From contig NZ_CP017674.1 in assembly GCF_001792815.1 (NCBI RefSeq), positions 2,480,001 to 2,544,000 of the forward strand: a stretch of 64,000 nucleotides of DNA, written 5' to 3'. Source of the stretch: Microbacterium sp. BH-3-3-3. Lineage in GTDB: Bacteria > Actinomycetota > Actinomycetes > Actinomycetales > Microbacteriaceae. A program made the translations under genes and the position numbers. Positions 1 to 64,000 of this stretch are shown here, piece by piece; the stretch's first letter is position 1, and each line of letters starts with the position of its first letter. Under the pieces are notes generated by a model that saw only the letters and a list, made by a program, of their open reading frames with translations, was not told the origin of the DNA and made no database searches.

Positions 1-507
1 ATCCTCAGCACCGAGATCATGCTGATCGCGCTGTCGAGCCTCGACCCCGGCTTCGGCATCTGGATGACGCTGGGCGCCCTGCTCGTGATCGGCCTGGCCA
101 TGACGGTGGTCGTCTACGGCGCGGTCGCCCTGCTGGTGAAGGTCGACGACATCGGCCTGCGGTTGATGAAGAGCGCATCACGCGGGGTGCGTCGCTTCGG
201 CGTGCGGATCGTGGCATCCATGCCCGCGGTGTTCCGCGTGATCAGCGTCATCGGCACGGTCGCGATGCTGTGGGTCGGTGGGCACCTGGTGCTGCAGAAC
301 CTCTCCGAGACGCTGTGGGCCGGACCGTACGAGGTCGTGCACCTCGTGACCCACGCGATCGAGGCCGCCGGCCCCGTGATCGTCTGGATCGTCGAGACCG
401 CGATGTCGGCGGTGTTCGGCCTGATCCTGGGGCTCATCATCGTCGGCATCATGACCGGGGTCACGCGCCTGGTGAAGCGCGACGCCCCCGCCGACGCCGC
501 CCACTGA
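1..507 (+). CDS. DUF808 family membrane protein, C-terminal part
   Basis: The reading frame is open from the first base of the window, so the gene starts upstream and only about 168 C-terminal residues are present. The opening residues ILSTEIMLIALSSL match what I remember of the middle of DUF808 (YedI-like) integral membrane proteins, whose function is unknown. Three hydrophobic stretches are visible, around residues 24-46, 77-98 and 122-150 of the visible part, the last being Gly/Ile-rich. The tail is short and charged (KRDAPADAAH). The gene converges on the hydrolase at 567-1409, with a strong hairpin between them. The family call rests on the local motif and the membrane topology. Confidence 0.75.
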   Translation: MLSTEIMLIALSSLDPGFGIWMTLGALLVIGLAMTVVVYGAVALLVKVDDIGLRLMKSASRGVRRFGVRIVASMPAVFRVISVIGTVAMLWVGGHLVLQNLSETLWAGPYEVVHLVTHAIEAAGPVIVWIVETAMSAVFGLILGLIIVGIMTGVTRLVKRDAPADAAH

Positions 508-522
508 CCCGCCCCGGCGGCC

Positions 523-552
523 GCACGCTTGCGCGGTTCGCCGCGCGCGTGC
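523..552. terminator. UUCG-capped hairpin between convergent genes
   Basis: GCACGC (523-528), a TT bulge, GCGCGG (531-536), loop TTCG (537-540), CCGCGC (541-546) and GCGTGC (547-552) form a 12-bp stem capped by a cUUCGg tetraloop. It lies between two convergent stop codons and has no clear T-tract, so it probably acts as a bidirectional terminator. Confidence 0.75.
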
Positions 553-566
553 CGCGGCAGCGACGG

Positions 567-1409
567 CTACGCGCGGGACTCGCCGGCGGTGACGGCGCGG
601 ACGATCCCGCCGATCAGCTCGGGCCAGAGCTCGGGGGCGATGAAGTGCCCCATGCCGGGGTGCACCTGCAGCTCGGCGCCGCGAAGCGCCGCGGCCATGT
701 CGACCGCTGCGTTCCAGTGCAGCACGTCGTCGTCGCGGCCGTGGAAGACCAGGGCGGGAACGTCGAGGGCGCGGAGGGCCTCGAGCCGCTCGGGCGCGCG
801 CAGCAACGCCGACCACTGCCGCGAGAAGCCCTCGGGGAAGTACCCGCGGTCGAACGCCTCGCCCGCCGCCCACGCGTTCCATTCGACGTCGAGCGGGTAG
901 CGCTCGCCCGCGGTCGCGGAGGCGAAGGCGGCGGCCCCGGCGGTGATCTCGGCGCGCGAGTATCGCAGCGGAGCCCGCATGAGCTCGGGCCTCTCGTCGT
1001 GGAGCACGTAGCGGGCATCGCGCCCCGGGATGGTCGACAGCAGACCCAGGCTCCGGACCCTCTCGGGATGCCGGATCGCGGCCATCTGCGCCATCATCCC
1101 GCCCATCGAGTGCCCGACGAGGTGCGCCGCGTCGAGGCCGAGGTCGTCGAGCACGCGCACGACGTCGTCGCCCATCTCTTCGAGGCCGTACCCGCCGTCG
1201 ATGTCGTCGGGTCCGCCGAAACGGGCCGAGAGCCCCACGTCGCGGTTGTCCATGCGCACGACGTGCAGACCCCGCTCGACCAGTCGGGCGACCAGGTCGA
1301 CGTGCCAGGCGATGAGCTGCGCGCCGCCGCCGGCGATCAACACCACCGTCGGGTCGTCGGCGTCACCGGCGGTGTCGTAGAAGATCGCGGGGTCGGGGGT
1401 GAACGGCAT
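567..1409 (-). CDS. alpha/beta hydrolase
   Basis: A 280-residue soluble alpha/beta-hydrolase-fold protein. The oxyanion-hole region is GGGAQ near residues 27-31, the nucleophile elbow is GHSMGG with Ser101, the likely acid is in the FHGRDDD segment (about residues 226-228) and the base is His255 in GMGH. The overall pattern resembles small hydrolases such as the RdmC/aclacinomycin methylesterase-like or 3-oxoadipate enol-lactonase-like groups; the substrate cannot be read from the sequence. I chose the ATG at 1409 because GAAGGA lies just upstream; a longer frame to 1475 would lack a good ribosome-binding site. It lies downstream of the IclR-type gene on the same strand and may be co-transcribed with it. 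Confidence 0.85.
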   Translation of the reverse strand: MPFTPDPAIFYDTAGDADDPTVVLIAGGGAQLIAWHVDLVARLVERGLHVVRMDNRDVGLSARFGGPDDIDGGYGLEEMGDDVVRVLDDLGLDAAHLVGHSMGGMMAQMAAIRHPERVRSLGLLSTIPGRDARYVLHDERPELMRAPLRYSRAEITAGAAAFASATAGERYPLDVEWNAWAAGEAFDRGYFPEGFSRQWSALLRAPERLEALRALDVPALVFHGRDDDVLHWNAAVDMAAALRGAELQVHPGMGHFIAPELWPELIGGIVRAVTAGESRA

Positions 1410-1449
1410 CCGGGGTCCTTCGTTCGGGGTGCGAGCGACGATAGCCGCG

Positions 1450-2895
1450 TCAGCGACGCGGCGGTATGGGCGCAACGCCCATCGGGGCGAGGGTGGGAAT
1501 GGATGCCGAGCCCGGGGCGTGCAGGTCGGCGGAGAGCTCCGCGGCGAGGGCGCGGGCCGCGGCCTCGAGGCCGGTGAGGCGCGGTTTGACGTTCTCGGTC
1601 GCCCCGACGATGCAGGCGGCGGCGGCGACCTGGCCCGCGGCGTCGCGCACGGGGGCGGAGATCGAGGTGATGCCGAACTCGTCGATGGACTCCATGGTCA
1701 GCACCCCGTCGGCGCGCACGCGCTCGACGCGTCCGGTGAACTGGGCGTACTCGGCGGCCCCGTGCCGGCGGGGGAAGAGCGCGCCCAGCTGATCGAGGGT
1801 GAAGTCCATCGCGAGGGTGGGTCCTCCGTCGGAGCCGACGAGCGGATGCGGGCGGCCCAGCCAGGGCGCCATGATCAGGCCCTCGGCGAGGGGTTCGATG
1901 TGCTCGACCAGGGTGAAGCTGCGCATGCCCTTGAGCGCGGTGACGAAGACGCAGGCCTCGGCGCGGGCCGCGGTCGCGGCGGCACGGGCGGGGCCGGTGC
2001 GCGCGAGGAGGGGCTCGGTCGCTGCGCGATGCCAGGCGTGCAGGGCGAGGTCGAGATGCAGGCGGTCGGACTCGGCGTCGTGCGCGACCGTTCCCGCGCG
2101 GACGAGGGCGTCGACCACTCGACGCGCGCGGTCGGGGCGGAGTCGCGCGGCGGCCGCGATGCCCGCCACCGAGTCGGGGCCGTCGGCGAGGTGTTCGAGC
2201 ACGCGCGTCGCCGCCTCGAGGGCGCGGGTCGGCTCGACGGCGGCGGCGTCCCCGCGGACGGGCCCGACGTGCGCCTCGGCCAGGGCCTGCTCGAACGCGC
2301 GCCGCGCATCGCCGAGGACGCGGCGCACGCGGGGGCGGGCGCGGGCGGCGCGATAGACCGGGAGGCTCACCGCGAGGGCGGCCACCGTGCGCCCGTCGGG
2401 TGTCGTGAGCCGGACGGCGATCTCGACCGCTCGGCCGAGCTGCGACTCGACGAGGCCGTCGCCGCCGCGCGTGGCCCGCACGAGGGCGCGACGCTCGTCG
2501 GTGACGAGTTCGCCGAGGGTCACGGGCACGTGCAGGGTCCACCCCGAACCGACGGTCGCGAGCACGCGCGCCCCGCCCGTCTCGGGGGCCGCGAGGACGA
2601 CCGTCTCGGTCGTCTCCTGCGCGATGCGGTGCAGCTCGAACCGCACGACCGGGGCGAGCGCCGCGGACGCTCGACCCGACAGGGCGAGGGCGCGGGATCC
2701 GACGCGGTAGCTGCCGTAGTCGTCGGCCCGGGCGAGTAGGCCGAGGTCGGCGAGCTCGGCGCACAGCCTCGACACGGTGCTGAGGCTCGCGCGTGCGCCG
2801 CGGGCGATCGACGACAGCGGAAGCGGCCGGGTGGGGTCGGGGCGTGCCGCGACCGCGCGCAGGGCGGCGATCGCGTGCTCGATCCTCGCGCTCAT
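1450..2895 (-). CDS. double-length IclR-type transcriptional regulator
   Basis: A 481-residue protein, nearly twice the usual IclR length of about 250. Residues 1-65 form an IclR-like winged helix (SLSTVSRLCAELADLGLL) followed by a degenerate effector-like segment (about 75-225). A second HTH-like segment lies near 235-300 (SVAGIAAAARL, RRVVDALVRAGTV), followed by a better preserved effector domain ending in the IclR hallmark SIDEFGITSISAPVRD. This looks like a tandem duplication or fusion of two IclR units in one chain. It is divergent from the amine-oxidase operon at 3034, with a short inverted repeat between them, and is the obvious candidate regulator. The ATG at 2895 has GGGAGGG just upstream. 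Confidence 0.8.
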   Translation of the reverse strand: MSARIEHAIAALRAVAARPDPTRPLPLSSIARGARASLSTVSRLCAELADLGLLARADDYGSYRVGSRALALSGRASAALAPVVRFELHRIAQETTETVVLAAPETGGARVLATVGSGWTLHVPVTLGELVTDERRALVRATRGGDGLVESQLGRAVEIAVRLTTPDGRTVAALAVSLPVYRAARARPRVRRVLGDARRAFEQALAEAHVGPVRGDAAAVEPTRALEAATRVLEHLADGPDSVAGIAAAARLRPDRARRVVDALVRAGTVAHDAESDRLHLDLALHAWHRAATEPLLARTGPARAAATAARAEACVFVTALKGMRSFTLVEHIEPLAEGLIMAPWLGRPHPLVGSDGGPTLAMDFTLDQLGALFPRRHGAAEYAQFTGRVERVRADGVLTMESIDEFGITSISAPVRDAAGQVAAAACIVGATENVKPRLTGLEAAARALAAELSADLHAPGSASIPTLAPMGVAPIPPRR

Positions 2896-2943
2896 GGCAT
2901 CCCTCCCGCCAGGATCGCAATCTCGACCGTGGCGTTTTGCATC

Positions 2944-2957
2944 TCACGGTGACCGTA
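2944..2957. promoter_or_regulatory. candidate operator in the IclR/oxidase divergent region
   Basis: ACGGT (2946-2950), g, ACCGT (2952-2956) is a compact inverted repeat in the 138-bp gap between the IclR-type gene and the operon starting at 3034. It is the only clear dyad I see there. Assigning it to the IclR protein is inference. Confidence 0.35.
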
Positions 2958-3033
2958 ACAGCCCCGCCGCGCGGGGTTCGAATAATGGCTGACATTCGCC
3001 GGGCGCCCGACCGGCCCCTCGAAAGGACCCGCC

Positions 3034-4167
3034 ATGGAGCAGTTCGACGCCGCCGTCGTCGGTCTCGGAGCCCTCGGCAGCGCCGCCGCGTACCACCTGG
3101 CCGGTCGGGGCGCGCGCACGGTCGCCTTCGAGCAGTTCGAGCTCGGGCACGTGCGCGGCGCCTCGCACGACACCTCGCGCATCGTGCGCACCTCGTACGG
3201 CTCGGCCGCGTACGTGCGCTTCGCGCAGGCGGCGTACCGCGAGTGGGCGGCGCTCGAGGCGGCCACGGGGGAGCGACTGCTGAGCATCACCGGCGGCGTC
3301 GTGTTCATCCCCGACGGCGGCCCGTACGACGCCGCCGACTTCGCGCGGAGCCTGACCGACAACGACGTGCCGTTCGACCTGCTCGGCCCCGACGAGGTGC
3401 ACGAGCGGTGGCCGCAGTTCTCGCTGCCCGCCGGCGTCACCACCGTCTACACGCCCGACTCGGGAATCGCCCACGCCGCCCGCACGGTCGCGACGCTGCA
3501 GATGCACGCCCGGGTGCGGGGCGCCGACCTGCGGGACCGCACGCGGGTCGACCGCCTCATCCCCGACGGCGACGGCGTGATCGTCTCGACCTCGTCCGGC
3601 GAGGTGCGCGCTCGCCGCGTCGTCGTGGCCGCCGACGCGTGGACGAACACGCTGCTCGAGCCGCTCGGCATCCGGATCCCGCTCGAGGTCATGCAGGAGC
3701 AGGTGAGCTACTTCGCGCCATCCGAGCCCGAGGCGTTCGAGCGCGACCGGTTCCCCGTCTGGATCTGGGAGGACGAGCAGTGCTTCTACGGTTTCCCGAC
3801 CTACGGCGAGCCCACCATCAAGGCGGCGCGCGACGTCTCGGAGGTGCACATGTCACCGGCGGAGCGCACGTTCGTCCCGTCGGAGGAGCGCACGGCCGAG
3901 CTGGCGGCGTTCCTCTCGGCGACGATCCCCGCGAGCGGCCCGGTGCTGCGCACCGTCACGTGCCAGTACGCGCTGACCCCCGACCGCCGCTTCGTCATCG
4001 GCCCCCTCGTCGAGCAGCCCGACATCATCGTGGCGCTGGGCGCCGGCCACGCGTTCAAGTTCACCCCGGCGATCGGTCTGGCGCTGGCCGAGCTCGCGAT
4101 GGGCGGCGACACCACCGACGACCTGTCGGCGTTCGCGGTCGACGCGACCGTCGCCCCGGCGATGTGA
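3034..4167 (+). CDS. FAD-dependent amine oxidase, sarcosine/N-methyltryptophan oxidase type
   Basis: A 377-residue protein of the monomeric sarcosine oxidase/N-methyltryptophan oxidase family. It would oxidise a secondary amine or N-methyl amino acid, releasing an aldehyde, amine and H2O2. The N-terminal Rossmann motif is VVGLGALGSAAAYHLA (residues 8-23); GASHDTSRIVRTSY (43-56) matches the family's flavin-contact loop; Cys310 in TVTCQYALTPDRRF corresponds to the cysteine that binds FAD covalently in this family; GAGHAFKFTPAIG is the C-terminal FAD loop. GAAAGGA precedes the ATG. It is the first gene of a five-gene operon, so substrate entry by amine oxidation is likely. The exact substrate is unknown. 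Confidence 0.88.
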   Translation: MEQFDAAVVGLGALGSAAAYHLAGRGARTVAFEQFELGHVRGASHDTSRIVRTSYGSAAYVRFAQAAYREWAALEAATGERLLSITGGVVFIPDGGPYDAADFARSLTDNDVPFDLLGPDEVHERWPQFSLPAGVTTVYTPDSGIAHAARTVATLQMHARVRGADLRDRTRVDRLIPDGDGVIVSTSSGEVRARRVVVAADAWTNTLLEPLGIRIPLEVMQEQVSYFAPSEPEAFERDRFPVWIWEDEQCFYGFPTYGEPTIKAARDVSEVHMSPAERTFVPSEERTAELAAFLSATIPASGPVLRTVTCQYALTPDRRFVIGPLVEQPDIIVALGAGHAFKFTPAIGLALAELAMGGDTTDDLSAFAVDATVAPAM

Positions 4168-4175
4168 GGACCCCC

Positions 4176-4613
4176 GTGCAGATTCAGCGCCGCGGAGACG
4201 GCCACCACGATTGGACCCTCTACGAGGGGGAGGGGCGCGTGGGCATCGAGTGGTACTTCCCGGATGCCACGGCCCTCGGCGCCCAGGTGATGCTCTACCA
4301 CCTGGCCCCCGGTGCCTCGGAGGGCGAGCACCGCCACCTCACCGGCGCCGCCGACAGCTGCTCGGCCGACAGCAGCGACGAGATGTACGTCGTCACCGCG
4401 GGCGAGATCGTCTTCACCGCCGACGGGGTCGACCGGGTGCTCAGGGCGGGAGACGGCGCGTACGCCCCGGCGGGCATGGTGCACGGCGTGCGCAATGCCT
4501 CGGACGCCCCGGCCGAGCTCGTGCTGATCTTCGGCCCGCCGACGACCGCCGCGCCCACCACCACCACGCCGCCCGCCGCCCCGCCGCCCACCGCCCCGGA
4601 GGAGACGCCGTGA
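4176..4613 (+). CDS. cupin-domain protein
   Basis: A 145-residue single-cupin protein. The metal-binding cupin motifs are visible: GEHRHL followed by DEMYVVTAGEIVF, and GDGAYAPAGMVHGVRN. Residues from about 122 on form a low-complexity Thr/Pro/Ala tail that may be disordered. It begins with GTG 8 bases after the preceding stop, and its TGA overlaps the next GTG start, so it is translationally coupled. Such small cupins in catabolic operons are usually sensors, isomerases or accessory enzymes; I cannot assign a reaction. The cysteine and acidic cluster CSADSSDE just before the second motif strand is unusual. Confidence 0.8.
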   Translation: MQIQRRGDGHHDWTLYEGEGRVGIEWYFPDATALGAQVMLYHLAPGASEGEHRHLTGAADSCSADSSDEMYVVTAGEIVFTADGVDRVLRAGDGAYAPAGMVHGVRNASDAPAELVLIFGPPTTAAPTTTTPPAAPPPTAPEETP

Positions 4614-5254
4614 GACACGCCCCCGACTACGCCCTGACCGACCTCGACGCGGTGCGCGAGCTGGTGCGCGAGAACCCCTGGGCCACGCTGGTGAGTCATG
4701 TGCCCGGGCGGGGGCTCGTGGCATCCCACTATCCGGTGCTCGTCGACGACGCGGGCGACGGGTTCTCGATCGTGAGCCACGTGGGGCGCCCCGACGAGGC
4801 GCTGCACGAGCTCGGCGCGCACGAGGTGATGGTCGTGGTGTCGGGACCGAGCGGGTACGTCTCGCCCGGCTGGTACGACGTGTCGCCGGCCGTGCCGACC
4901 TGGAACTTCGTCGTCGCGCACCTGTACGGCACGCCCGAGCTGCTGAGCGACGACGAGAACCTCGCGGTGCTCGACCGGCTCGTCACGCACTTCGAGGCAC
5001 CGTTGCCGAACCCCTTCCTGATGCACCGGAGCCTCGAGAACACCGCGTACGCCGAGCGGATCGTGCACGGGACGGTCGGGTTCCGCCTGCCCGTCGCACG
5101 GTTCGAGGCGAAGCAGAAGCTCAGCCAGGACAAGCCCGCCGCGGTCGTCGACCGCATCGTCGCGGCGCTGTGCGCTCCCGGCCCCTATGAGAACCCGGCC
5201 CTGGCCGGTCGGATGGACACCATCCGCCAACGAGAGGAACGAGAAGAACGATGA
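4610..5254 (+). CDS. PaiB-like FMN-binding split-barrel protein
   Basis: A 214-residue protein of the PaiB/FMN-binding negative regulator family. Matching segments are the N-terminal NPWATLVSHVPG, the central GPSGYVSPGWYD and VPTWNFVVAHLYG, and the C-terminal FEAKQKLSQDKP, all typical of this family. PaiB was described in Bacillus as affecting sporulation and protease genes; many actinobacterial members probably act as flavin- or heme-handling proteins. The GTG start overlaps the cupin stop by 4 bases and GGAGGAG lies upstream. Its place in an amine-oxidation operon suggests a flavin-linked or regulatory role, but that is inference. Confidence 0.85.
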   Translation: MRHAPDYALTDLDAVRELVRENPWATLVSHVPGRGLVASHYPVLVDDAGDGFSIVSHVGRPDEALHELGAHEVMVVVSGPSGYVSPGWYDVSPAVPTWNFVVAHLYGTPELLSDDENLAVLDRLVTHFEAPLPNPFLMHRSLENTAYAERIVHGTVGFRLPVARFEAKQKLSQDKPAAVVDRIVAALCAPGPYENPALAGRMDTIRQREEREER

Positions 5255-6279
5255 CCGGATTCGTAGGCGTGGATGCCATGGTGCGCTGGGTCGCGACGAA
5301 CGGAGCCGAGCGGCTCATGACCGACATGGTCGCGTACCTCGAGGCCGACTACCGTCGCTGGTCGTCGTTCGACAAGGTCGAGCGCATGGCCAGCCACACC
5401 CCGTTCGGGGTGATCGAGCTCATGCCCATCAGCGATCCCGACACGTACGCCTTCAAGTACGTGAACGGGCATCCCTTCAACCCCGGCCGCGGATACCAGA
5501 CCGTCACCGCGTTCGGCGTGCTCGCCGACGTGCACAACGGCTACCCGGTGTTCCTGTCGGAGATGACGCTGCTCACGGCGTTGCGCACCGCCGCGACCTC
5601 GGCCATGGTGGCGCGCCGACTGGCCCGCCCCGACCCGCGCACGATGGCGATGATCGGCGCGGGGAGTCAGGCGGAGTTCCAGGCCCTCGCGTTCCGCGGT
5701 GTGCTGGGCGTGGATCGTCTGCGCGTGTTCGACGTCGACCCCGCGGCAACCGCCAAGCTCGTGCGCAACCTCACCCCGCTCGGCTTCGACATCGAGGTGT
5801 GCGACTCGGCGGCCGAGGCCGCTCGCGGCGCCGACATCGTCACGACCTGCACCGCCGACAAGGCGGCGGCGACGGTGCTCAGCGATGCCGACGTGACAGC
5901 GGGAATGCACATCAACGCCATCGGCGGCGACTGCCCCGGTAAGACCGAGCTCGACCCCGCGATCCTGTCGCGCGGACCGGTGTTCGTGGAGTACGCCCCG
6001 CAGACCCGGATCGAGGGCGAGATCCAGCGGGTCGCCGCCGACTTCCCGGTGACGGAGTTCTGGGAGGTGCTCACCGACCGCGCGCCGGGGCGCACCTCCG
6101 ACGACCAGGTGACCGTCTTCGACTCGGTCGGCTTCGCAATCGAGGACTTCTCGGCGCTGCGGTTCCTGCGCGACAGCGTCGCGGGCACCGAACTGGCGCT
6201 CGAGATCGACCTCGTGGCCGCCCCCGACGATCCGAAGGACCTCTTCGGCCTCGTCGGCGCCCCGGTGCCCGCTCTGTGA
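5251..6279 (+). CDS. ornithine cyclodeaminase/mu-crystallin family enzyme
   Basis: A 342-residue NAD(P)-dependent enzyme of the ornithine cyclodeaminase family. The N-terminal substrate half contains KVERMASH and DTYAFKYVNGHPFNP. The Rossmann motif is MAMIGAGSQAEFQALAF near residues 131-147, followed by RVFDVDP, the acidic residue contacting the cofactor. ADIVTTCTADK and HINAIGGDCPGKTEL are family hallmarks. True cyclodeaminases turn ornithine into proline plus ammonia; relatives act as alanine or opine dehydrogenases or ketimine reductases. ATGA overlaps the preceding stop. With an amine oxidase upstream and an amidohydrolase downstream, a role in breaking down an N-substituted amino acid is plausible. 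Confidence 0.88.
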   Translation: MTGFVGVDAMVRWVATNGAERLMTDMVAYLEADYRRWSSFDKVERMASHTPFGVIELMPISDPDTYAFKYVNGHPFNPGRGYQTVTAFGVLADVHNGYPVFLSEMTLLTALRTAATSAMVARRLARPDPRTMAMIGAGSQAEFQALAFRGVLGVDRLRVFDVDPAATAKLVRNLTPLGFDIEVCDSAAEAARGADIVTTCTADKAAATVLSDADVTAGMHINAIGGDCPGKTELDPAILSRGPVFVEYAPQTRIEGEIQRVAADFPVTEFWEVLTDRAPGRTSDDQVTVFDSVGFAIEDFSALRFLRDSVAGTELALEIDLVAAPDDPKDLFGLVGAPVPAL

Positions 6280-7739
6280 GCGCGCTCACCCTGCGCTCGG
6301 GCCGGCCGTACGGCGGCGAGCCCGTCGACGTCGTCGTGCGCGACGGCCTCATCGCCTCGATCGTCCCGGCCGGTTCCGCGCCGGCCGAGGGCGAGGTCGT
6401 CGAGCTCGACGGCCGCGCGATCGGTCCCGGCCTCTGGGACGCCCACGTGCACTTCTCGCAGTGGGTCATCTCGAGCCGCCGCGTCGACGTCGCCGGCACG
6501 CACAGCCCCGATGAGGTCGTGGATGCCGTGCGTCGGGCGCTCGTCGCCGGGGCGCCGCGAACCGACGGGGTGCTCGTCGGCTACGGCTACCGCGACGGGT
6601 TGTGGACCACTCCGACCACACTCCGACTCCTCGACGACGCGTTCCCCGACGTTCCGGTGGTGCTCGTCAGCGGCGACCTGCACGCCGGGTGGATGAACTC
6701 CCGCGGGGCCGAACGCCTCGGCCTCCGCCCCGACGCCAGCGGCGTCGTCGCCGAGCTCGAGTGGATCGCCGCCCTGCAGCGGTTCCAGCAGGCGGCATTC
6801 ATTCCGGTCGAGGCATATGGCGAGGTCGCCGACGCCGCTGCCCGGCGCGGTGTGGTCGGCATCGTCGACTACGAGAACGTCCCGAACTTCCTCGAGTGGC
6901 CCGAGCGGGTCGCCGCGGGCGTGCGTGCGCTGCGGGTCGACGCCTCGGTGTGGCCCGACCGACTCGAGCAGGCCATCGCCGCGGGCCTGCGGACGGGCGA
7001 CCCGCTCGACGCCGACGGACTCGTCACCATGGGCCGGCTGAAGGTCGTCGTCGACGGCTCCCTCAACACGCGCACGGCGTGGTGCTGGGACCCGTACCCC
7101 GGTGCCGACCCCCTGCACGCCCACGCGTGCGGCGTGCAGAGCGTCTCGGTCGACGAGCTGCACCGACTGCTCCGACGCGCGAAGCAGGGCGGCATCCTCC
7201 CCGCCGTGCATGCCATCGGCGACCGCGCGAACGCCGAGGTGATCGGTGTGCTCGAGACCCTCGGCATGCCCGGCATCATCGAGCACGCGCAACTCGTGAG
7301 CGACGGCGATTTCGCCCGATTCCGCCGGGTGGGCCTCATCGCCAGCGTGCAGCCCGAGCACGCGATGGACGACCGCGACATCGCCGACCTGCACTGGTCG
7401 GGACGCACCGACCGGGCCTTCGCGTTCGGCTCTCTGCATCGGTCGGGCGCGGCCCTGCGCCTCGGCTCCGACGCCCCCGTCGCCCCGCTCGACCCGTGGC
7501 ACGCGATCGCGTCGGCGACCTCGCGCAGCCGCGGCGACCGCGAGGCCTGGCATCCGGAACAACGCCTTCCGCTCGACGTCGCGCTGGCGGCGAGCAGCCG
7601 CAGCACCCTCGCCGTCGGGCAGCCGGCCGACCTCGTGGTGCTCGAACGCGACCCCTTCGCGTGCGACCGCGACGACCTGCGCGAGATGACCGTGGCGGCG
7701 ACCCTTCTCGGCGGGCGGTTCACGCACCGGGCGGTGTGA
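6276..7739 (+). CDS. YtcJ-like metal-dependent amidohydrolase
   Basis: A 487-residue amidohydrolase-superfamily protein of the 'amidohydrolase 3'/YtcJ group. It has the metal-binding motif GLWDAHVHFSQW near residue 50, a central VHAIGDRANAEV near residue 310 and the C-terminal GSDAPVAPLDPW with the catalytic aspartate. An N-terminal beta-strand layer and a C-terminal ADLVVLERDPF strand frame the barrel, as in the family. It begins with GTG overlapping the preceding TGA. It would hydrolyse an amide, carbamate or cyclic amide. As the last gene of the operon it may open or deacylate the compound that the other enzymes process. Confidence 0.88.
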   Translation: MSALTLRSGRPYGGEPVDVVVRDGLIASIVPAGSAPAEGEVVELDGRAIGPGLWDAHVHFSQWVISSRRVDVAGTHSPDEVVDAVRRALVAGAPRTDGVLVGYGYRDGLWTTPTTLRLLDDAFPDVPVVLVSGDLHAGWMNSRGAERLGLRPDASGVVAELEWIAALQRFQQAAFIPVEAYGEVADAAARRGVVGIVDYENVPNFLEWPERVAAGVRALRVDASVWPDRLEQAIAAGLRTGDPLDADGLVTMGRLKVVVDGSLNTRTAWCWDPYPGADPLHAHACGVQSVSVDELHRLLRRAKQGGILPAVHAIGDRANAEVIGVLETLGMPGIIEHAQLVSDGDFARFRRVGLIASVQPEHAMDDRDIADLHWSGRTDRAFAFGSLHRSGAALRLGSDAPVAPLDPWHAIASATSRSRGDREAWHPEQRLPLDVALAASSRSTLAVGQPADLVVLERDPFACDRDDLREMTVAATLLGGRFTHRAV

Positions 7740-7747
7740 CCGGGCTC

Positions 7748-7773
7748 GTCGGGGGCGGCGGGCCGCCCCCGAC
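7748..7773. terminator. GC-rich palindrome ending the catabolic operon
   Basis: GTCGGGGGCGGC (748-759) and GCCGCCCCCGAC (762-773) form a perfect 12-bp inverted repeat 8 bases after the amidohydrolase stop codon. In RNA the inner pairs would open to make a usable loop. It lies between convergent genes, so it probably terminates transcription. Confidence 0.7.
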
Positions 7774-7895
7774 AGGCCAGCCGTCGCGCGGGGCCGTCGC
7801 GTGCGGACGCTCGACGATCCGGTGCGTCGCGCCTCGGCGCGTGCACGAACGCGATTCCCGCGCCCGGTCGACGCGTTCCCGCCCGCGCGGAGCGT

Positions 7896-8822
7896 TCAGG
7901 CGTTCAGGACGAGCGTCTCTCCCGCACGAGCGCGCGAGACGCAGGGGTAGATGATGCGGGAGTCGTCGTCCACCGTCAGCGAATCGCGGTGGTCCACCGC
8001 CCCATCCAGCACGGGCACGGCGCACGAGCCGCAGACCCCGCGCAGGCAGGAGCCGTTCATCGGCACCCCGGCGCCCTGGAGCGACTCGAGCAGCGACCGG
8101 GTCGCGGGCACCTCGACGGTCACACCGGACCGGGCGGCGGTGGCGGTGAAGGCCTCGTTCGGCCCGAACTCCCGCTTCCGGGGCTCGAAACGCTCGAGAT
8201 GGATGCCGGACCCCTCGGGCAGTGTCGGGGTCAGCGCCCAGAGCGCGTCGACGAACGACGCCGGCCCGCACGCGTAGACGTCGGTGCCGGGGGCGATCCC
8301 GCCGACGACCGCGTCGAGGTCGAGACGCCCCTGCTCGCGGCTGACGTGGGTGGTGGCGCGATCGCCGAGGGCGGCGATCTCGTCGGCGAAGGCGACGCCG
8401 TCGCGCTCCCGGGCGACGACGATCATTCTCCAGTCGGCGTCGACGGCGGCGAGGTGACGGGCCATCGACAGGATCGGCGTGACCCCGATCCCGGCGGCCA
8501 GCAGCAGGTACGCGGGGGCCTCGCCGAGCTCGAACAGATTGCGGGGCGGGCGGACCCAGACGGTGCTGCCCTCGCGCAGGAACGCGTGGATGTAGTGCGA
8601 GCCGCCGCGCGACAGTTCTTCGCGGCGCACGGCGATACGGTACGACGCGGTGTCGGCGGGGTCGCCGCACAGCGAGTACTGCCGCTCGTGGCGCGTGATC
8701 AGCTGCAGGTCGATATGGGCGCCGGGGTTCCAGGCGGGGAGGGGGGATCCATCGACGTTCTGCAGGCGGATGCTCACGATGTCGGGCGTCTGGCGGATGA
8801 TCTCGCGGACCACCAGGGGCAT
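7896..8822 (-). CDS. PDR/VanB-type oxidoreductase (flavin, NAD, plant-type 2Fe-2S)
   Basis: A 308-residue reductase resembling phthalate dioxygenase reductase and vanillate demethylase VanB. Order of domains: flavin-binding barrel with RQYSLCGDP (RxYS motif), NAD-binding part with LLAAGIGVTPILSMAR and VYACGPASFVDAL, and a C-terminal ferredoxin domain with the cysteine pattern CLRGVCGSCAV followed by a distant IIYPC. It would pass electrons from NAD(P)H to an oxygenase. No Rieske oxygenase gene is visible nearby, so its partner lies outside the window. I chose the ATG at 8822 with AGGGA upstream; a GTG at about 8844 would also be possible. Confidence 0.9.
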   Translation of the reverse strand: MPLVVREIIRQTPDIVSIRLQNVDGSPLPAWNPGAHIDLQLITRHERQYSLCGDPADTASYRIAVRREELSRGGSHYIHAFLREGSTVWVRPPRNLFELGEAPAYLLLAAGIGVTPILSMARHLAAVDADWRMIVVARERDGVAFADEIAALGDRATTHVSREQGRLDLDAVVGGIAPGTDVYACGPASFVDALWALTPTLPEGSGIHLERFEPRKREFGPNEAFTATAARSGVTVEVPATRSLLESLQGAGVPMNGSCLRGVCGSCAVPVLDGAVDHRDSLTVDDDSRIIYPCVSRARAGETLVLNA

Positions 8823-8844
8823 CAGTCCCTCGCGGCTGCGCACC

Positions 8845-53166: not shown

Positions 53167-53194
53167 GGTGCGACACGCCCGGGATGTGGCTGGA

Positions 53195-53667: not shown

Positions 53668-58724
<5,057 letters not shown>

Positions 58725-58739
58725 ACACACCGTTTTTGG

Positions 58740-58767
58740 TGCTTGCGTCCACTGAGTGGTTCTCGAT
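58740..58767 (+). other. 3' strand of the pre-23S processing stem
   Basis: The reverse complement of this segment reads GAGAAC-C-AC-T-CAGTGGACGC-A-AGCA, almost matching GAGAACTACACAGTGGACGC in the spacer at 55505-55533. Together they enclose the 23S gene. Confidence 0.6.
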
Positions 58768-58826
58768 GTACGGTCGGGAACTCAACAATGATGATGTCGT
58801 TGTTGGTTTTTGAAACATCAATAGTG

Positions 58827-58943
58827 TTTCGGCGGCCATAGCGAGAGGGAAACGCCCGGTTACATTCCGAACCCGGAAGCTAAGCCTCTCAGCGCCGATG
58901 GTACTGCAGGGGGGACCCTGTGGGAGAGTAGGACACCGCCGGA
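58827..58943 (+). rRNA. rrf: 5S ribosomal RNA
   Basis: About 117 bases beginning TTTCGGCGGCCATAGCGAGAG and ending near GACACCGCCGGACTT; the two ends pair to form helix I. The conserved CCCGGTTACATTCCGAACCCGGAAG core is present. It follows the 23S gene by about 100 bases. Confidence 0.95.
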
Positions 58944-58957
58944 CTTCTTTTAGTCGG

Positions 58958-58985
58958 AATGGCCACCCAATGTTGGGTGGCCATT
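58958..58985 (+). terminator. rRNA operon terminator
   Basis: AATGGCCACCCAA (58958-58970), loop TG and TTGGGTGGCCATT (58973-58985) form a perfect 13-bp stem 15 bases after the 5S gene. It ends the rRNA operon only 37 bases before the next start codon. Confidence 0.85.
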
Positions 58986-59021
58986 TCGCATTTACGGGCA
59001 CATTTCCCGGGAAGGCCAGTC

Positions 59022-60836
59022 ATGTCGACGAATGACGCGAACGATCGCAAGAGCAACGAAGGACGCTCGGGCGACCGCGCGTCCGGTCGCGGGCAGTCTT
59101 CCGGAAGGGACGGGGCGTCGCCACGCGGTGACCGTCCATTCCGTCGTGAGGGCGATGCCCGTCCTCCGCGCGACAACGACCGCCCGTTCCGTCGGGACAA
59201 TGATTCGCGTCCTGCGCGTTCGGGGGATTCGCGTCCGCCGCGTGAGGGTGACTCTCGTCCATCGCGTGACGGTGATCGCCCGTTCCGTCGCGACAACGAC
59301 TCGCGTCCGCCGCGTGATGGCGACCGCCCGTTCCGTCGTGACAACGATTCGCGTCCGCCGCGTTCGGGTGACTCCCGTCCATCGCGTGACGGTGATCGCC
59401 CCTACCGTCGCGACAATGACTCGCGTCCGCCGCGTGATGGTGACCGTCTTTACCGTCGCGACAATGACTCGCGTCCGCCGCGTGATGGTGACCGCCCGTT
59501 CCGTCGCGACAACGATTCGCGTCCGCCCCGTTCGGGTGACTCCCGTCCATCGCGTGACGGTGATCGTCCTTACCGTCGCGACAATGATTCGCGTCCGCCG
59601 CGTGATGGTGACCGCCCGTTCCGTCGCGACAACGATTCACGTCCGCCCCGTTCGGGTGACTCCCGTCCATCGCGTGACGGCGACCGCCCCTACCGTCGCG
59701 ACAATGACTCGCGTCCGCCGCGTGATGGCGATCGCCCTTACCGTCGCGACAATGACTCGCGTCCGCCGCGTGACGGTGATCGTCCGTATCGTCGCGAGGG
59801 CGACAATCGCGGTTTCGCCGGCGGGAATGACCGTCGTCCCTCAGGTGACCGGCGTCCCGGTGCGGGCGCACCCCGCCGCTTCGATCGTGACGACGCACGT
59901 GCCACGCGTCCGCCGCAGGACCGGCGCGAGCGGGGTCCGGAGATCCCCGAAGAGATCACGGCCTGGGATCTGCCGGGCGCGGCACGCAACGAGTTGAAGA
60001 CGCTGAGCAAGGACAACGCCGAGAACGTCGCCCGCCATCTCGCGATGGCCGCGCGTCTCATCGACGAAGACCCCGCGCTCGCGCACGAGCACGCGTTGGC
60101 GGCCTCTCGGAGCGCCGGCCGTGTCGGCGTCGTCCGCGAGACGGTCGCCATCACCGCTTATGCGGTGGGGGACTTCGCCCTCGCCCTGCGAGAGCTGCGC
60201 ACCCACCGTCGCATCACGGGCTCCGACGATCAGGTGCCGCTCATCGTGGACAGCGAGCGAGGAGTCGGCAAACCCGATCGCGCGCTGGAAGAGGGCCGCG
60301 CGGTGGACCGCTCGAAGCTCTCGGTCCCGGTCCGTGTGCAGCTCGCGATCGCGATGTCCGGTGCTCGTCTGGACCTCGGAGAAACGGAACGGGCGCTCCA
60401 GGAACTCGACATCCCCGAGGCCGACCCCGACCGTGCGTTCGAGTGGAGCCCCGCGCTGTTCAGCGCTCGCGCCGCGGTGCTCGAGGAGCTCGGGCGTGAC
60501 GCCGAAGCGGCGGAGTGGGAACGCCGTGCACAGATCGCTGCCGACGCCCTCGACGCCGCAGCGGGCGTCGCCGACCGCGAAGTGATCGTCGTCGAGGAGA
60601 TCGAACTCATCGACGACGAGGGCGGTGTGGACGTGGCATCCGGGGTCATCCCGACAGAAGACCTCGGCGTCGACGACATCGAAGACCTTGGCGACACCTC
60701 CACCTCCGCTGACGACGCCGATGTCACTGATGCTGACGCCGATGCGGTTTTTGCTGGCGCAGTGGACGTCGACGAGGCTGACGCTGACTCTGACGCTTCG
60801 ACGGAGTCCTCCGCCCCCGACGAGGACGCGCGATGA
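59022..60836 (+). CDS. Arg/Asp-rich repeat protein with C-terminal TPR-like domain
   Basis: A 604-residue protein in two parts. Residues about 45-265 are a disordered, highly charged array built from a 16-residue unit such as DGDRPFRRDNDSRPPR, with an 8-residue insert SGDSRPSR recurring in a regular pattern. Residues about 305-510 form an alpha-helical, TPR-like domain (ITAWDLPGAARNELKTLSKDNAENVARHLAMAA, AAVLEELGRDAEAAEWERRAQ). The last 80 residues are acidic (Asp/Glu/Ala). GGGAAGG precedes the ATG at 59022. Relatives in this position in Microbacteriaceae are often labelled 'primosomal protein' without evidence. The Arg/Asp mix suggests RNA binding or phase separation. It follows the rRNA operon and precedes HAD, tlyA and nadK genes. 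Confidence 0.85.
   Translation: MSTNDANDRKSNEGRSGDRASGRGQSSGRDGASPRGDRPFRREGDARPPRDNDRPFRRDNDSRPARSGDSRPPREGDSRPSRDGDRPFRRDNDSRPPRDGDRPFRRDNDSRPPRSGDSRPSRDGDRPYRRDNDSRPPRDGDRLYRRDNDSRPPRDGDRPFRRDNDSRPPRSGDSRPSRDGDRPYRRDNDSRPPRDGDRPFRRDNDSRPPRSGDSRPSRDGDRPYRRDNDSRPPRDGDRPYRRDNDSRPPRDGDRPYRREGDNRGFAGGNDRRPSGDRRPGAGAPRRFDRDDARATRPPQDRRERGPEIPEEITAWDLPGAARNELKTLSKDNAENVARHLAMAARLIDEDPALAHEHALAASRSAGRVGVVRETVAITAYAVGDFALALRELRTHRRITGSDDQVPLIVDSERGVGKPDRALEEGRAVDRSKLSVPVRVQLAIAMSGARLDLGETERALQELDIPEADPDRAFEWSPALFSARAAVLEELGRDAEAAEWERRAQIAADALDAAAGVADREVIVVEEIELIDDEGGVDVASGVIPTEDLGVDDIEDLGDTSTSADDADVTDADADAVFAGAVDVDEADADSDASTESSAPDEDAR
59165..59802 (+). repeat. coding tandem repeat (48-bp unit with 24-bp inserts)
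   Basis: About nine to ten copies of a 48-bp unit around CGTCGCGACAATGACTCG, some separated by a 24-bp insert around GGTGACTCCCGTCCATCGC. The higher-order period is often 120 bp. Copies differ mostly at third codon positions (C/T, G/A), so the protein sequence is conserved while the DNA drifts. Confidence 0.85.
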
Positions 60837-61870
60837 TCTTCGGCCGCGGCAGGACGGCGTCGACTCCGCTCGACGGCATCGACGTCGTGCTCGCCGACCT
60901 CGACGGCGTCGTGTACGCGGGCCCCGGTGCGCTCCCGCACGCCGTCGACAGTCTCAACCGGGCCCAGGACGAGGGGCGCCGGCTCGGCTACATCACCAAC
61001 AACGCCTCGCGCACCGATGCATCGGTCGCGGAGCACCTCTCGTCGCTCGGACTCCGCGTCGCCGCCGAGGACGTCACGACGAGTCCGCAGGCGGCCATGC
61101 GGCTCATGCGCGACCTCGTGCCCGCGGGCTCCACCCTTCTCGTCATCGGCGGCGAGGGTCTCGTCGTCGAGGTCGAGAAGGCCGGCTTCGTCGTCACCCG
61201 CAGTGCCGACGACGCCCCCGCGGCCGTCGTGCAGGGCTTCGCCCCCGACGTGGGATGGGCGCACCTGGCGGAGGCGGCCTACGCGCTTGCCACCCCCGTC
61301 GAAGACGGCGGCATCCCGTGGGTCGCGACGAACACCGACTGGACCATTCCGCAGGCGCGTGGCATCGCCCCGGGAAACGGCACCCTCGTGTCGGCCGTGC
61401 ACACGGCGGTGGGACGCCTGGCGACGATCGCCGGTAAGCCCGAGCGTCCGATCTTCGACGAGGCGATCACCCGGACAGGGGCGAAGGCGCCGCTGTTCAT
61501 CGGAGACCGGCTCGACACCGACATCCAGGGAGCGCGGACCGCGGGCATGCCCTCGCTGCTCGTACTGACCGGGATCGACCGGCCGAAGCAGGTGCTCGCC
61601 GCCATTGCGTCGCAGCGTCCCGACTACATCGTCGAGGATCTGCGCCAACTCTTCGAACCGTATCCCGAGACCATCGTCAAGGGCGCACGCACCCGCGTGG
61701 GTGACGCGATCGTCGAGGTCGATGGTGTCGACCTGCGCATCGTCGCGGAGGGCGGTCGGCAGATCGACCTTCTGCGCGCCGGAGCCGCGGCGATCTGGAA
61801 CTCCGGACGCGCCATCTTCGGCTTCCGCGTACCCGAACAGCTGTACGCGGACCCGTTCCGCGTGCGCTGA
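60833..61870 (+). CDS. HAD-superfamily phosphatase (NagD-type)
   Basis: A 345-residue HAD hydrolase. Motif I is VVLADLDGVVYAGPGALPHAV with the nucleophile Asp; motif II is YITNNASRT; motif III lies near KPERPIFDEAI and motif IV is FIGDRLDTDIQGARTAGMPSLLVLTG. The cap is of the NagD/PGP type (C2). A C-terminal extension of about 70 residues ends in RIFGFRVPEQ-like sequence. It would dephosphorylate a small metabolite such as phosphoglycolate or a sugar phosphate. It overlaps the repeat-protein stop by 4 bases (ATGA). Confidence 0.9.
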   Translation: MIFGRGRTASTPLDGIDVVLADLDGVVYAGPGALPHAVDSLNRAQDEGRRLGYITNNASRTDASVAEHLSSLGLRVAAEDVTTSPQAAMRLMRDLVPAGSTLLVIGGEGLVVEVEKAGFVVTRSADDAPAAVVQGFAPDVGWAHLAEAAYALATPVEDGGIPWVATNTDWTIPQARGIAPGNGTLVSAVHTAVGRLATIAGKPERPIFDEAITRTGAKAPLFIGDRLDTDIQGARTAGMPSLLVLTGIDRPKQVLAAIASQRPDYIVEDLRQLFEPYPETIVKGARTRVGDAIVEVDGVDLRIVAEGGRQIDLLRAGAAAIWNSGRAIFGFRVPEQLYADPFRVR

Positions 61871-61876
61871 CGTCGG

Positions 61877-61882
61877 TAGCAT
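61877..61882 (+). promoter_or_regulatory. -10 box of a probable leaderless promoter
   Basis: TAGCAT, 7 bases before the ATG at 61890; -35-like GTTCCG at 61855-61860. It could give the small protein, tlyA, nadK and recN their own transcript. Confidence 0.4.
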
Positions 61883-61889
61883 GGCATCC

Positions 61890-62060
61890 ATGTCGGACAG
61901 CTCCGCCCCCGATGCCGTTCCCGAACTCGTCGATCGTCTGCGGATGATCGAGGAGCAGCCGCTGGGAGCGCGCGCGGAGGCCTACGCCGCCGTGCAGGAC
62001 GAGTTGGCGCGCCGCCTCGAATCGGCACCGACCGACACCCCGGCAGCGCGGCGGGCGTGA
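61890..62060 (+). CDS. small conserved-position protein upstream of tlyA
   Basis: A 56-residue acidic/charged protein (PELVDRLRMIEEQPLGARAEAYAAVQDELARRLE), probably two amphipathic helices. I do not recognise a family by name, but a short frame between the HAD and tlyA genes is a usual arrangement in relatives. TAGCAT at 61877-61882 lies 7 bases before the ATG at 61890 with no ribosome-binding site, so a leaderless start is likely; ATG 61881 is the alternative. Its stop overlaps the GTG of tlyA. Confidence 0.7.
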   Translation: MSDSSAPDAVPELVDRLRMIEEQPLGARAEAYAAVQDELARRLESAPTDTPAARRA

Positions 62061-62857
62061 CTCCCCGTCTCGATGCGGAGCTCGCCGCCCGAGGGCTCGC
62101 CCGCTCCCGCTCGCACGCCGCTCAGCTCGTCGTCGACGGGCTCGTGAGCGTCGACGGGCGTCCGGTCGTCAAGACGTCGGCGCAGGTCGGCGACGACAGC
62201 GTCATCGACGTGGCCGGATCCGACCATTACGTCAGTCGGGGAGCCCACAAGCTGCTCGCGGCGCTCGACGCTTTCGACATCGTCGTGGACGGTGTCGTCG
62301 CCGTAGACCTGGGCGCGTCGACGGGCGGCTTCAGCCAGGTTCTGCGCGAACGCGGCGCTCGCCCCGTCTTGGCCGTCGACGTGGGCCACGGGCAGTTGTC
62401 CACCGTCGTCGAGTCCGACCCGGACGTGGTGTCGGTCGAGGGGTATAACGTGCGGTTCATGACCGCCGCCTCTCTCGCCGCCGCGACGGGCGTCGACGAG
62501 CGGCCACGCATCGTCACCGGTGATCTCTCGTTCATCTCGCTCCACCACGTTCTTCCTGCGATCGTCGAGACGATGGATCCGACCGCCGACGTCGTGCTGC
62601 TCATCAAGCCCCAGTTCGAAGTCGGCCGCACCGCGGTCAAGGGTGGGCTCGTCACCGACCCGGCTCTGCGGTCCGACGCCGTGCACGGCGTGCTGTGGGC
62701 CGCGTGGGACGTGGGCCTGCGCACCGCGGGTCTCATCGCGTCGCCGATCGTCGGAACCCATGGCAACCAGGAGTACGTCGCGTGGTTCTCGGCCGTCCAC
62801 GGCACAGAGCCCTCACAATGGGAGAGCACCGTGACCCGACTGACCGGAAGCCGATGA
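62057..62857 (+). CDS. tlyA: TlyA rRNA 2'-O-methyltransferase
   Basis: A 266-residue TlyA-family protein. N-terminal S4 RNA-binding domain: TPRLDAELAARGLARSRSHAAQLVVDGLVSVDGRPV. FtsJ-like methyltransferase domain: YVSRGAHKLLAALDAFDIVVDGVVAVDLGASTGGFSQVL (SAM motif), GDLSFISLHHVLP and LLIKPQFEVGRTAVKGG (catalytic Lys). In mycobacteria TlyA methylates 16S and 23S rRNA at sites that affect capreomycin sensitivity. GTG start overlaps the upstream stop. Its gene order with nadK and recN is conserved in actinobacteria. Confidence 0.95.
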   Translation: MTPRLDAELAARGLARSRSHAAQLVVDGLVSVDGRPVVKTSAQVGDDSVIDVAGSDHYVSRGAHKLLAALDAFDIVVDGVVAVDLGASTGGFSQVLRERGARPVLAVDVGHGQLSTVVESDPDVVSVEGYNVRFMTAASLAAATGVDERPRIVTGDLSFISLHHVLPAIVETMDPTADVVLLIKPQFEVGRTAVKGGLVTDPALRSDAVHGVLWAAWDVGLRTAGLIASPIVGTHGNQEYVAWFSAVHGTEPSQWESTVTRLTGSR

Positions 62858-63774
62858 CCCCCAGCGATCGCCGAATCCTCCTCGTCGTCCACGCGCGCCG
62901 TGACGACACCGTCCATGCCGCCGAACGCATCATCACGGCCATCTGCGCGGCGGGGGCGACTCCCGTCGTCTCGGCCGAGGACCGCCCCGAACTCGCCGAG
63001 CGCCTCGGCCTCGAGGGCGTGGCGACCCTGGGTGTCGACGTGGGCATCGACGACGTCGAGCTCGCCATCGTCCTCGGCGGGGACGGCACCATCCTGCGCG
63101 CGGCCGAGATGGTGCGCGGAAGCACGGCCCCCATCCTCGGCGTCAACATGGGGCACGTGGGATTCCTCGCCGAGATCGAACGCGATGACATGGACGACGC
63201 GGTGCGTCGGGTGATCGACCGGGACTACACGGTCGAGGAGCGCCTCGCGCTCGCCGTCAAGATCGAAGACGCCGACGACCGTGTCATCTTCGAGACGTGG
63301 GCGCTCAACGAGGCCACCGTCGAGAAGGCCAGCCGCGAGCGCATGCTCGAGGTCGTCATGGCCGTCGACGGTCGCCCGCTGTCGTCGTTCGGCTGCGACG
63401 GCGTCGTCGTCGCCACCCCGACCGGCTCGACCGCCTACAACTTCTCGGCCGGGGGCCCCATCGTCTGGCCGACCGTCGAGGCGATCGCCGTCGTGCCGCT
63501 GTCGGCGCACGCGCTCTTCGCGCGCCCCCTGGTGGTGAGCCCCGAGGCCACTGTCGCGGTCGAGGTCTTGGAGCGCACGAGCGGCAGCGGCATCCTGTGG
63601 TGCGACGGTCGCCGTTCGCACGACCTGCCCCCGGGTGCGCGCGTCGTCGTGCGCCGGTCGTCCCGGCCCGTGCGGCTGGCACGGCTGCACCCGGCCGCCT
63701 TCACCGATCGCCTCGTGCGCAAGTTCCACCTCCCCGTGACGGGTTGGCGGGGAGTGGCGGGGGGACCGTCATGA
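62854..63774 (+). CDS. nadK: NAD kinase
   Basis: A 306-residue NAD(+)/NADH kinase. Motifs: LAIVLGGDGTILRAAEMVRG (GGDG), ILGVNMGHVGFLAEIE, ALNEATVEKASRERMLEVVM (NE-containing NAD site) and DGVVVATPTGSTAYNFSAGGPIVWP. The ATG overlaps the tlyA stop by 4 bases. It makes NADP(H) from NAD(H) and ATP or polyphosphate. Length and motifs are standard for actinobacterial NadK. Confidence 0.96.
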   Translation: MTPSDRRILLVVHARRDDTVHAAERIITAICAAGATPVVSAEDRPELAERLGLEGVATLGVDVGIDDVELAIVLGGDGTILRAAEMVRGSTAPILGVNMGHVGFLAEIERDDMDDAVRRVIDRDYTVEERLALAVKIEDADDRVIFETWALNEATVEKASRERMLEVVMAVDGRPLSSFGCDGVVVATPTGSTAYNFSAGGPIVWPTVEAIAVVPLSAHALFARPLVVSPEATVAVEVLERTSGSGILWCDGRRSHDLPPGARVVVRRSSRPVRLARLHPAAFTDRLVRKFHLPVTGWRGVAGGPS

Positions 63775-64000
63775 TCGAAGAGATGCGCCTGCGCGATCTC
63801 GGTGTGATCGCCGACGCCACCTTGCCCATGGGACGGGGATTCACCGCCATCACGGGCGAGACCGGCGCCGGCAAGACGATGGTCGTCACCGGTCTCGGAC
63901 TGCTGCTCGGCCAGCGCGCCGACTCGAGCGCCGTGCGCAAGGGCGCGGCGCAGGCGACGGTCGAGGGCGTCTGGCTCGTTCCCGAGGACGGCCCCGTGGC
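63771..64000 (+). CDS. recN: DNA repair protein RecN, N-terminal part
   Basis: The ATG at 63771 overlaps the nadK stop by 4 bases and the frame runs off the end of the window after about 76 residues. The start MIEEMRLRDLGVIADATLPMGRGFTAITGETGAGKTMVVTGLGLLLGQRADSSAVRKG matches the RecN/SMC-like ATPase, with Walker A GETGAGKT near residue 29. Full RecN would be about 550-570 residues and acts in double-strand-break repair. The rest lies outside the window. Confidence 0.95.
   Translation, partial: MIEEMRLRDLGVIADATLPMGRGFTAITGETGAGKTMVVTGLGLLLGQRADSSAVRKGAAQATVEGVWLVPEDGPV

Follow-up and report, generated by a model that had tools for sequence, protein, structure and literature searches.

Why does one seven-base word recur so often in a stretch of the Microbacterium sp. 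BH-3-3-3 chromosome? The stretch of 64,000 nucleotides that we analysed, hereafter the window, covers positions 2480001-2544000 of a 3,508,491-base single-contig genome (coded G000) and is rich in the heptamer GGATGCC, which appears as GGCATCC when it lies on the minus strand. A sequence-only reading had proposed that this word is a signal at the level of DNA and not a codon effect. Exact string counting on the plus strand gave 35 GGATGCC and 48 GGCATCC, 83 copies in the window; the earlier count was right for GGCATCC but put GGATGCC at 33. Independent bases predict 15.2 copies (Markov order 0), in line with the figure near 15 quoted before, and orders 1 to 5 predict 14.6, 14.1, 17.2, 40.3 and 60.0, respectively. 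Among the 8192 seven-mer classes of the window GGATGCC ranks first at orders 1-4, including the third order (83 vs 17.2), the model order that the sequence-only reading had suggested for complete genomes. It ranks 28th at order 0, where CG-periodic words are ahead, and 25th at order 5, because at that order the hexamers already absorb the GGATGCC signal. Over the whole genome there are 4736 copies (2330 + 2406) compared with 361 (165 + 196) for the reversed word. The best LepA matches of G000, a Microbacterium MAG (97%) and M. enclense (96%), point to this genus.

Codon usage was addressed by synonymous shuffling within 430 called genes, which make up 89% of a 464-kb sample composed of the window and 20 spaced 20-kb stretches. 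The genes of this sample hold 518 copies, while shuffling leaves 164.7 ± 9.3 (maximum 187 of 200 shuffles), and the window genes hold 72 compared with 24.9 ± 3.7 (maximum 37, 500 shuffles). The codon-shuffled null thus fails to reproduce the count, and under it GGATGCC ranks first of all seven-mers in the 464 kb. Copies lie in all three reading frames, as had been claimed, and the excess is greatest in the frames that need rare codons. In our gene calls Asp is written GAC in 86% of cases and Ala is written GCA in 4%, bearing out the codon preferences noted earlier; the Asp-Ala frame (GAT-GCC) is nonetheless found 196 times vs 40.6 expected and the Ala-Ser frame (GCA-TCC) 127 times vs 3.8. The Gly-Ile frame, which had been counted with these two, is mostly ordinary codon choice (147 vs 104.8). 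All eight Ala-Ser examples previously listed are real, but four had been misplaced (18526, 37354, 40979 and 60634 should read 18527, 37363, 40980 and 60635). Copies also occur outside genes, again as described, with a density of 1.60/kb in intergenic and 1.26/kb in coding DNA. A signal at the RNA level was rejected, as copies in genes surpass the codon null by similar margins in both orientations (225 - 53.9 vs 293 - 110.7). Because the excess withstands codon shuffling, occupies all reading frames, is found at similar density outside genes and recurs in other genomes, we regard the existence of a signal in the DNA itself, distinct from a codon effect, as established.

The bases that flank the word indicate a somewhat longer unit. 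In 604 copies from G000 the following base is G in 71% and A in 24%, and the preceding base is C in 48% and T in 24%; the fuller unit in this genome is therefore yGGATGCCR, with a density of ~1.3 copies per kb. The next 3′ base is G in 78% of copies in the genomes G106 and G215 and is nearly free in G057. Among the properties that the sequence-only reading had marked for checking, strand skew was seen neither genome-wide (2330/2406) nor along the 20 stretches (the replication origin itself was not mapped), with 292/313 in the 464 kb and 8/14 and 10/16 as the biggest imbalances in any stretch. Spacing is nearly random, with a coefficient of variation (CV) of 1.05. Nearest neighbours lie on opposite strands in 369 cases and on the same strand in 215 (p 2e-10). 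When amino acids and the share of usable sites are both preserved in the null, G000 shows a 2.5-fold depletion of pairs that lie within 250 bp on the same strand (30 vs 75.3 ± 9.8) and a slight surplus of opposite-strand pairs (95 vs 76.2 ± 9.8). G057 agrees weakly with this same-strand depletion (65 vs 93.8 ± 11.4), and no clear depletion is present in G215 (16 vs 19.2 ± 4.3) or G106 (40 vs 37.4 ± 6.3).

How widely is the word shared? Across 249 Microbacteriaceae genomes from 85 genera the counts extend from control level, as in G051 (229 vs control 245) and G121 (223 vs 248), up to 7364 in G057 (3.9 Mb) and 7429 in G227 (4.2 Mb). Within the genus, G106 (5599) and G215 (4772) resemble G000, but G164 holds only 812; the prediction of enrichment in other genomes of the genus is accordingly borne out in two of the three others counted. 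Among 396 genomes drawn from the phylum, none outside Microbacteriaceae exceeds about 0.55/kb, as read from the table with rounded genome sizes. In the sampled genomes, strong GGATGCC enrichment is confined to Microbacteriaceae and has been lost in some members. One Arthrobacter locus (L240), outside the strict family limits, also passed the GGATGCC cut (21 vs 9.1), a tentative call from ~20 kb at Markov order 2. Fifteen Microbacterium phages (716,480 bases) contain 395 copies, or 0.55/kb, compared with 93 for the control, which is far below the chromosomes and above control; three named Microbacterium genomes that are not the phages' own hosts (G639-G641) hold 4242 to 6052 copies each. On the record strand the phage copies are asymmetric (GGCATCC 260 vs GGATGCC 135), perhaps because most phage genes share one strand and GGC-ATC is the customary way of writing Gly-Ile.

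Several relatives carry other over-represented words with a similar core, which the earlier inference did not foresee. We call these words dialects and consider their existence, too, to be established. We searched 60 to 464 kb per genome (20 kb for G005) at Markov order 3 (order 2 for G005) and by codon shuffling; samples of 20 kb are mostly too small for finding new words. In 10 of the 18 family genomes examined, one word was first of all seven-mers under both nulls: GGATGCC in G000, G106 and G057, CGGATGC in G008, CGGATCC in G034 and in the Microbacterium genome G164, CAGGATC (fuller form GCAGGATC) in G047, GCGGATC in the single 20-kb sample of G005, and CACCGAT in G010 and G092. CGGATCC of G164 extends to the palindrome CGGATCCG. 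In G215 GGATGCC was first in the Markov test and second under codon shuffling, behind the overlapping CGGATGC. A GGAT core is common to GGATGCC, CGGATGC, CGGATCC, GCAGGATC and GCGGATC, all of which hold under the codon null. GCGGATC was also first at order 3 in G051 and G121, but is not counted as a word there because it exceeds the codon null just 1.8-fold and ranks 121st and 108th under it. By our judgement, four of the 18 genomes (G014, G045, G017 and G024) have no stand-out word, GGATGCC in G017 reaching 74 vs 39.0 (rank 37). In G016 (loci L028 and L087-L091), GCTGCTCG (174 vs 44.1) and GCAGCAGC (87 vs 15.5) exceed the codon null; the GCTGCTCG-type excess is not singled out at Markov order 3, and a codon-pair effect likely lies behind it.

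Comparable words are found beyond the family. In G333, from another family of the order, GTATGCCG occurs 53 times vs 2.8 (in genes, 41 vs 2.9), and in the Markov test nothing comparable was found in G256 and G310, which represent other families of the order. All 53 copies of GTATGCC in the 80-kb sample of G333 (L161-L164) are followed by G, which makes this a strict eight-base word. In the order (129 genomes), the density of GTATGCC is above 0.3/kb in five of the eight genomes of the family coded f4, one of which, G715, is only at twice control, and by our reading of the counts in none of the other 121 does it rise above about 0.16/kb. From the shared word we infer that f4 is the Intrasporangiaceae group, to which Terrabacter belongs; GTATGCCG would then be a mark of Intrasporangiaceae-type genomes. 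We also scored nine words in 80 named loci of ~20 kb each around lepA; the assignments from these single loci are tentative because each is short and was tested at Markov order 2 only. High GGATGCC counts characterise 8 of 11 Microbacterium loci as well as Herbiconiux, Agromyces and one Cryobacterium. CGGATCC marks M. suaedae and Microbacterium sp. USTB-Y, AGCATCCG (CGGATGCT) Microbacterium sp. AG1240, GATCCTGC Frondihabitans sucicola, GCGCATCC Gulosibacter macacae and Pseudoclavibacter, and CGGCATAC Tetrasphaera australiensis, two Terrabacter, Serinicoccus and Ornithinimicrobium. None of the nine words is prominent in two Curtobacterium loci and one Rathayibacter locus.

The fate of individual copies was followed in the comE-lepA region by comparing G000 sites with control seven-mers in relatives. 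At 89% identity five of six sites are kept vs 43% of control seven-mers, and in M. enclense (83% identity) 17 of 25 are kept vs 34%. The kept fraction was also above control in 12 of 18 further directed comparisons among relatives, in which the numbers are small. Nine more distant Microbacterium loci, two of which use CGGATCC and one CGGATGCT, keep 0-40% of the G000 sites, which is below control in seven of the nine and counts against the uptake reading discussed below. Thus, the closest genomes retain copies better than average, and farther away the positions have mostly turned over. Density stays high in the more distant loci despite this turnover.

Inverted pairs of the word form hairpins. 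The earlier proposal that such a pair makes the stem of a terminator was right as to the pair and the stem: the structure in Table 1 has a minimum free energy of -39.6 kcal/mol (z -6.28, 0/200 shuffles as good). It was not right as to a canonical terminator; lacking a T run, the hairpin is terminator-like. Among intergenic pairs up to 45 bp apart in the 464 kb, 8 of 10 are hairpin-forming and 2 of 10 have the reverse arrangement. No copy falls in the ribosomal RNA (rRNA) operon of the window, as had been observed (Table 1).

Table 1 Coordinates of word copies and other features (window numbering unless a genome is named)
Feature	Strand	Coordinates	Remarks
GGATGCC x35	+	first bases 1066, 1501, 4262, 5271, 6521, 8201, 11590, 12357, 13676, 16143, 19966, 21843, 22817, 24491, 26622, 28135, 31584, 33621, 35246, 36110, 37749, 38757, 39164, 41301, 41523, 43903, 45032, 45879, 46759, 48435, 49085, 50823, 51826, 52514, 52877 (span 1066..52883)	exact string count
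GGATGCC x48 (GGCATCC on +)	-	first + strand bases 213, 1405, 2896, 3667, 4720, 5468, 7191, 7549, 8902, 9952, 12418, 12700, 13387, 15015, 15736, 16996, 17095, 18527, 20968, 21168, 22101, 22904, 23099, 24648, 25605, 26664, 28481, 29341, 29665, 30273, 30369, 31869, 33630, 35649, 37363, 38506, 38959, 39047, 40427, 40980, 42315, 44042, 50449, 51053, 60635, 61310, 61883, 63589 (span 213..63595)	exact string count
Inverted pair GGATGCC 33621 / GGCATCC 33630		33612..33645	part of a 15-bp stem; flanked by convergent called genes, 32585-33595 (+) and 33665-35242 (-)
Copy-free stretch with rRNA operon		52884..60634	rRNA genes 53668-58944: 16S 53668-55189, 23S 55615-58726, 5S 58828-58944
PF01555 methyltransferase, ~319 aa (L191)		G000:C1:2392500-2393600	
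PF01555 methyltransferase, ~319 aa (L192)			in G164
Weak N6 methyltransferase match		G000:C1:3116373-3116936	in 1634-codon open frame

What process could write such words? A lineage-specific, sequence-specific process that acts on DNA and not on RNA or protein would keep yGGATGCCR in place throughout the genome as a recognition word, and the word that it reads would change between relatives, giving rise to the dialects. We suggest that a cell-surface or competence component may prefer word-bearing DNA in natural transformation, and that recombination of such DNA would then spread the word through every chromosome position that tolerates it. That natural transformation with a bias in DNA uptake or use is the driving process, with the receptor that this implies, comes near to an even chance in our estimate while staying somewhat short of it. 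Two small-genome Microbacteriaceae are reported to be naturally transformable (PMC11577799), and transformation in Micrococcus is described as proceeding through Flp pili (PMC6370729). ComEC (PF03772) was detected in 34 of 34 family genomes and a ComEA-like open reading frame (ORF), defined by a simple motif, in 28 of 30 loci; that motif was not found in G017 and G106. In G096 and G208 (genus g15) the ComEC match begins at position 27-28 of the model and its frame of 574 codons is shorter than elsewhere, and comEC may be shortened in these two.

Several observations count against the uptake reading. Genomes that lack any word carry ComEC just as regularly, and most of them have ComEA-like ORFs; because these genes are found in both, ComEC and ComEA do not discriminate word from no-word genomes, and the function is therefore inferred. 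No sequence-specific receptor was found, none having been looked for beyond ComEC and ComEA. One-mismatch neighbours of the word lie at 0.64-1.38 of the order-4 expectation (0.46 to 2.70 at order 3), although a graded uptake bias would enrich some. CACCGAT and GTATGCCG hold under the codon null but share only part of the GGAT core. In Haemophilus, uptake is described as independent of word orientation (PMC1939737), and uptake of this kind does not predict the same-strand depletion of G000, which is weaker in G057 and absent in G106. Our estimate is held down because the machinery is found also where the word is absent and because known uptake systems do not explain the same-strand depletion.

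The depletion of same-strand neighbours would fit a Chi-like signal for a translocating nuclease other than RecBCD (e.g., AdnAB or AddAB), which would recognise the word on a single strand as it travels in a given direction, so that each strand would need copies of its own; a non-palindromic word of 7-8 bp would also suit such an enzyme. We consider this unlikely. Neighbouring copies alternate and strand skew is lacking both genome-wide and along the chromosome, whereas Chi is polarised and its consecutive sites are expected on the same strand (PMC8022716). G106 and G215 are without the depletion that favours this explanation, RecC (PF04257) was found in none of 33 family genomes (no search was made for AddAB or AdnAB), and the palindrome CGGATCCG of the CGGATCC dialect is directionless. 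A switch of word within one genus would be unusual for Chi. The same switch in G164 would not be expected of a structural site, and together with the nearly random spacing it makes quite unlikely a second explanation, in which the word is bound by an abundant chromosome-organising or segregation protein of Micrococcales that needs sites to be regularly available on both strands. High density in coding and intergenic DNA, near balance of the strands in each stretch and restriction to the family in our sample all accord with such a protein, but strand symmetry excludes polar marks of the FtsK/KOPS (FtsK orienting polar sequences) type, for which strong strand skew by replichore would be seen.

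Replacement of words would be natural if an orphan methyltransferase together with repair created and kept the word and dialects followed changes of specificity, as for the highly iterated palindrome HIP1, where HIP1 and its replacements are reported to follow cognate methyltransferases (PMC4390886). We regard this explanation as quite unlikely here. None of three methyltransferase families, PF00145, PF01555 and PF02384, tracks the word across the family genomes tested. PF02384 at first matched the presence of any word: it occurred in 12 of 12 genomes then counted as having one, which included G051, and in none of the 5 others. The link broke in 27 more genomes (16/27), with 10 of 15 GGATGCC-rich genomes and 6 of 12 from genera whose sampled member has no word. 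PF00145 occurs in 9 of 17 genomes, and GGATGCC-rich G215 is not one of them. PF01555 is found in 17 of 17, with strong E-values in 16, and may be a family-wide orphan enzyme; its proteins from G000 and G164 are 67% identical, with the middle and C-terminal parts most alike, though the words of these genomes differ. GGATGCC, unlike CGGATCCG of G164, is not a palindrome, and its likely deamination precursor GGACGCC is not depleted (173 vs 171.9, order 3). The latter count, along with the many different states seen at aligned sites in relatives, led us to reject an origin by mutation bias or deamination of methyl-C. That the word is a side effect of codon usage, base composition or mutation bias is very improbable. 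The order-5 expectation does climb to 60 copies, the Gly-Ile frame is near its codon expectation, and synonymous shuffling ignores codon-pair preferences, as the G016 words illustrate, which exceed the codon null without being singled out by the Markov test. However, codon shuffling places the genome's own word ahead of every other seven-mer in 11 sampled genomes, the rare-codon frames are the most enriched, and the 15 phages have under half of the G000 density (their own hosts were not counted).

As a separate observation, the 1634-codon frame of G000 in Table 1 has similarly long counterparts with weak N6 methyltransferase matches in G225 (1616 codons), G091 (1640) and G129 (1662), which may all be large restriction or defence enzymes of a single type. 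A search of phages with a methyltransferase protein gave no Microbacterium phage among the 40 matches listed.

Of the four functions put forward by the sequence-only reading, an uptake sequence fits best, a RecBCD-Chi signal and a polar segregation mark fit badly, and a methylation target is without support from the three methyltransferase families. The word resembles the DNA uptake sequences (DUS) of Neisseriaceae in its thousands of copies, lack of strand bias, presence inside and outside genes, inverted intergenic pairs and dialects with a shared core, the last being described for DUS in PMC3630211. Turnover of sites, and loss or replacement of the word among near relatives, add to the likeness to the Pasteurellaceae and Neisseriaceae words, which are discussed in PMC1939737. 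The differences from DUS are that the hosts are Actinobacteria and not Gram-negative, that the word is 7-8 bp, that no ComP-like receptor is known and that same-strand neighbours are depleted in one genome; DUS are 10-12 bp long. As in the uptake signal sequences (USS) of Pasteurellaceae, copies lie on both strands, within genes and in hairpins, at a density near that of USS (near 1 per kb), but the GGATGCC logo does not show the strong flanking A/T tracts that USS have, and the host is again not Gram-negative. Very high copy number and lineage-specific replacement are shared with HIP1 and the alternate HIPs of cyanobacteria, yet those are palindromes with cognate methyltransferases, in contrast to GGATGCC, which is non-palindromic and for which the three families yielded no cognate enzyme. 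With Chi (RecBCD/AddAB) the likeness is that of a short, over-represented, oriented word, without its polarity, without RecC and with copies that alternate in strand. Among the open PMC papers listed in our searches none describes this word in its title or abstract; the text of one of them, on Clavibacter (PMC12089995), contains its letters once per orientation.

To our knowledge, uptake words are known only from two Gram-negative families. We put forward only tentatively, as a proposal with appreciable but less than even prospects, that the Micrococcales words are self-recognition words, switchable within a genus, that would constitute the first uptake-type system in Gram-positives, and that in G000 each strand behaves as if it needed its own copy, for example if what is recognised is single-stranded or directionally processed DNA. 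If true, dialects in a large Actinobacterial order that is ecologically common could account for limits on gene exchange among closely related species, and providing DNA with the right word could help to transform laboratory strains that are hard to engineer. It would also supply an independent case on which to ask if words of this kind are passwords under selection or follow passively from biased uptake. Should the process be something other than uptake, it still writes sites by the thousand into these genomes in a sequence-specific manner.

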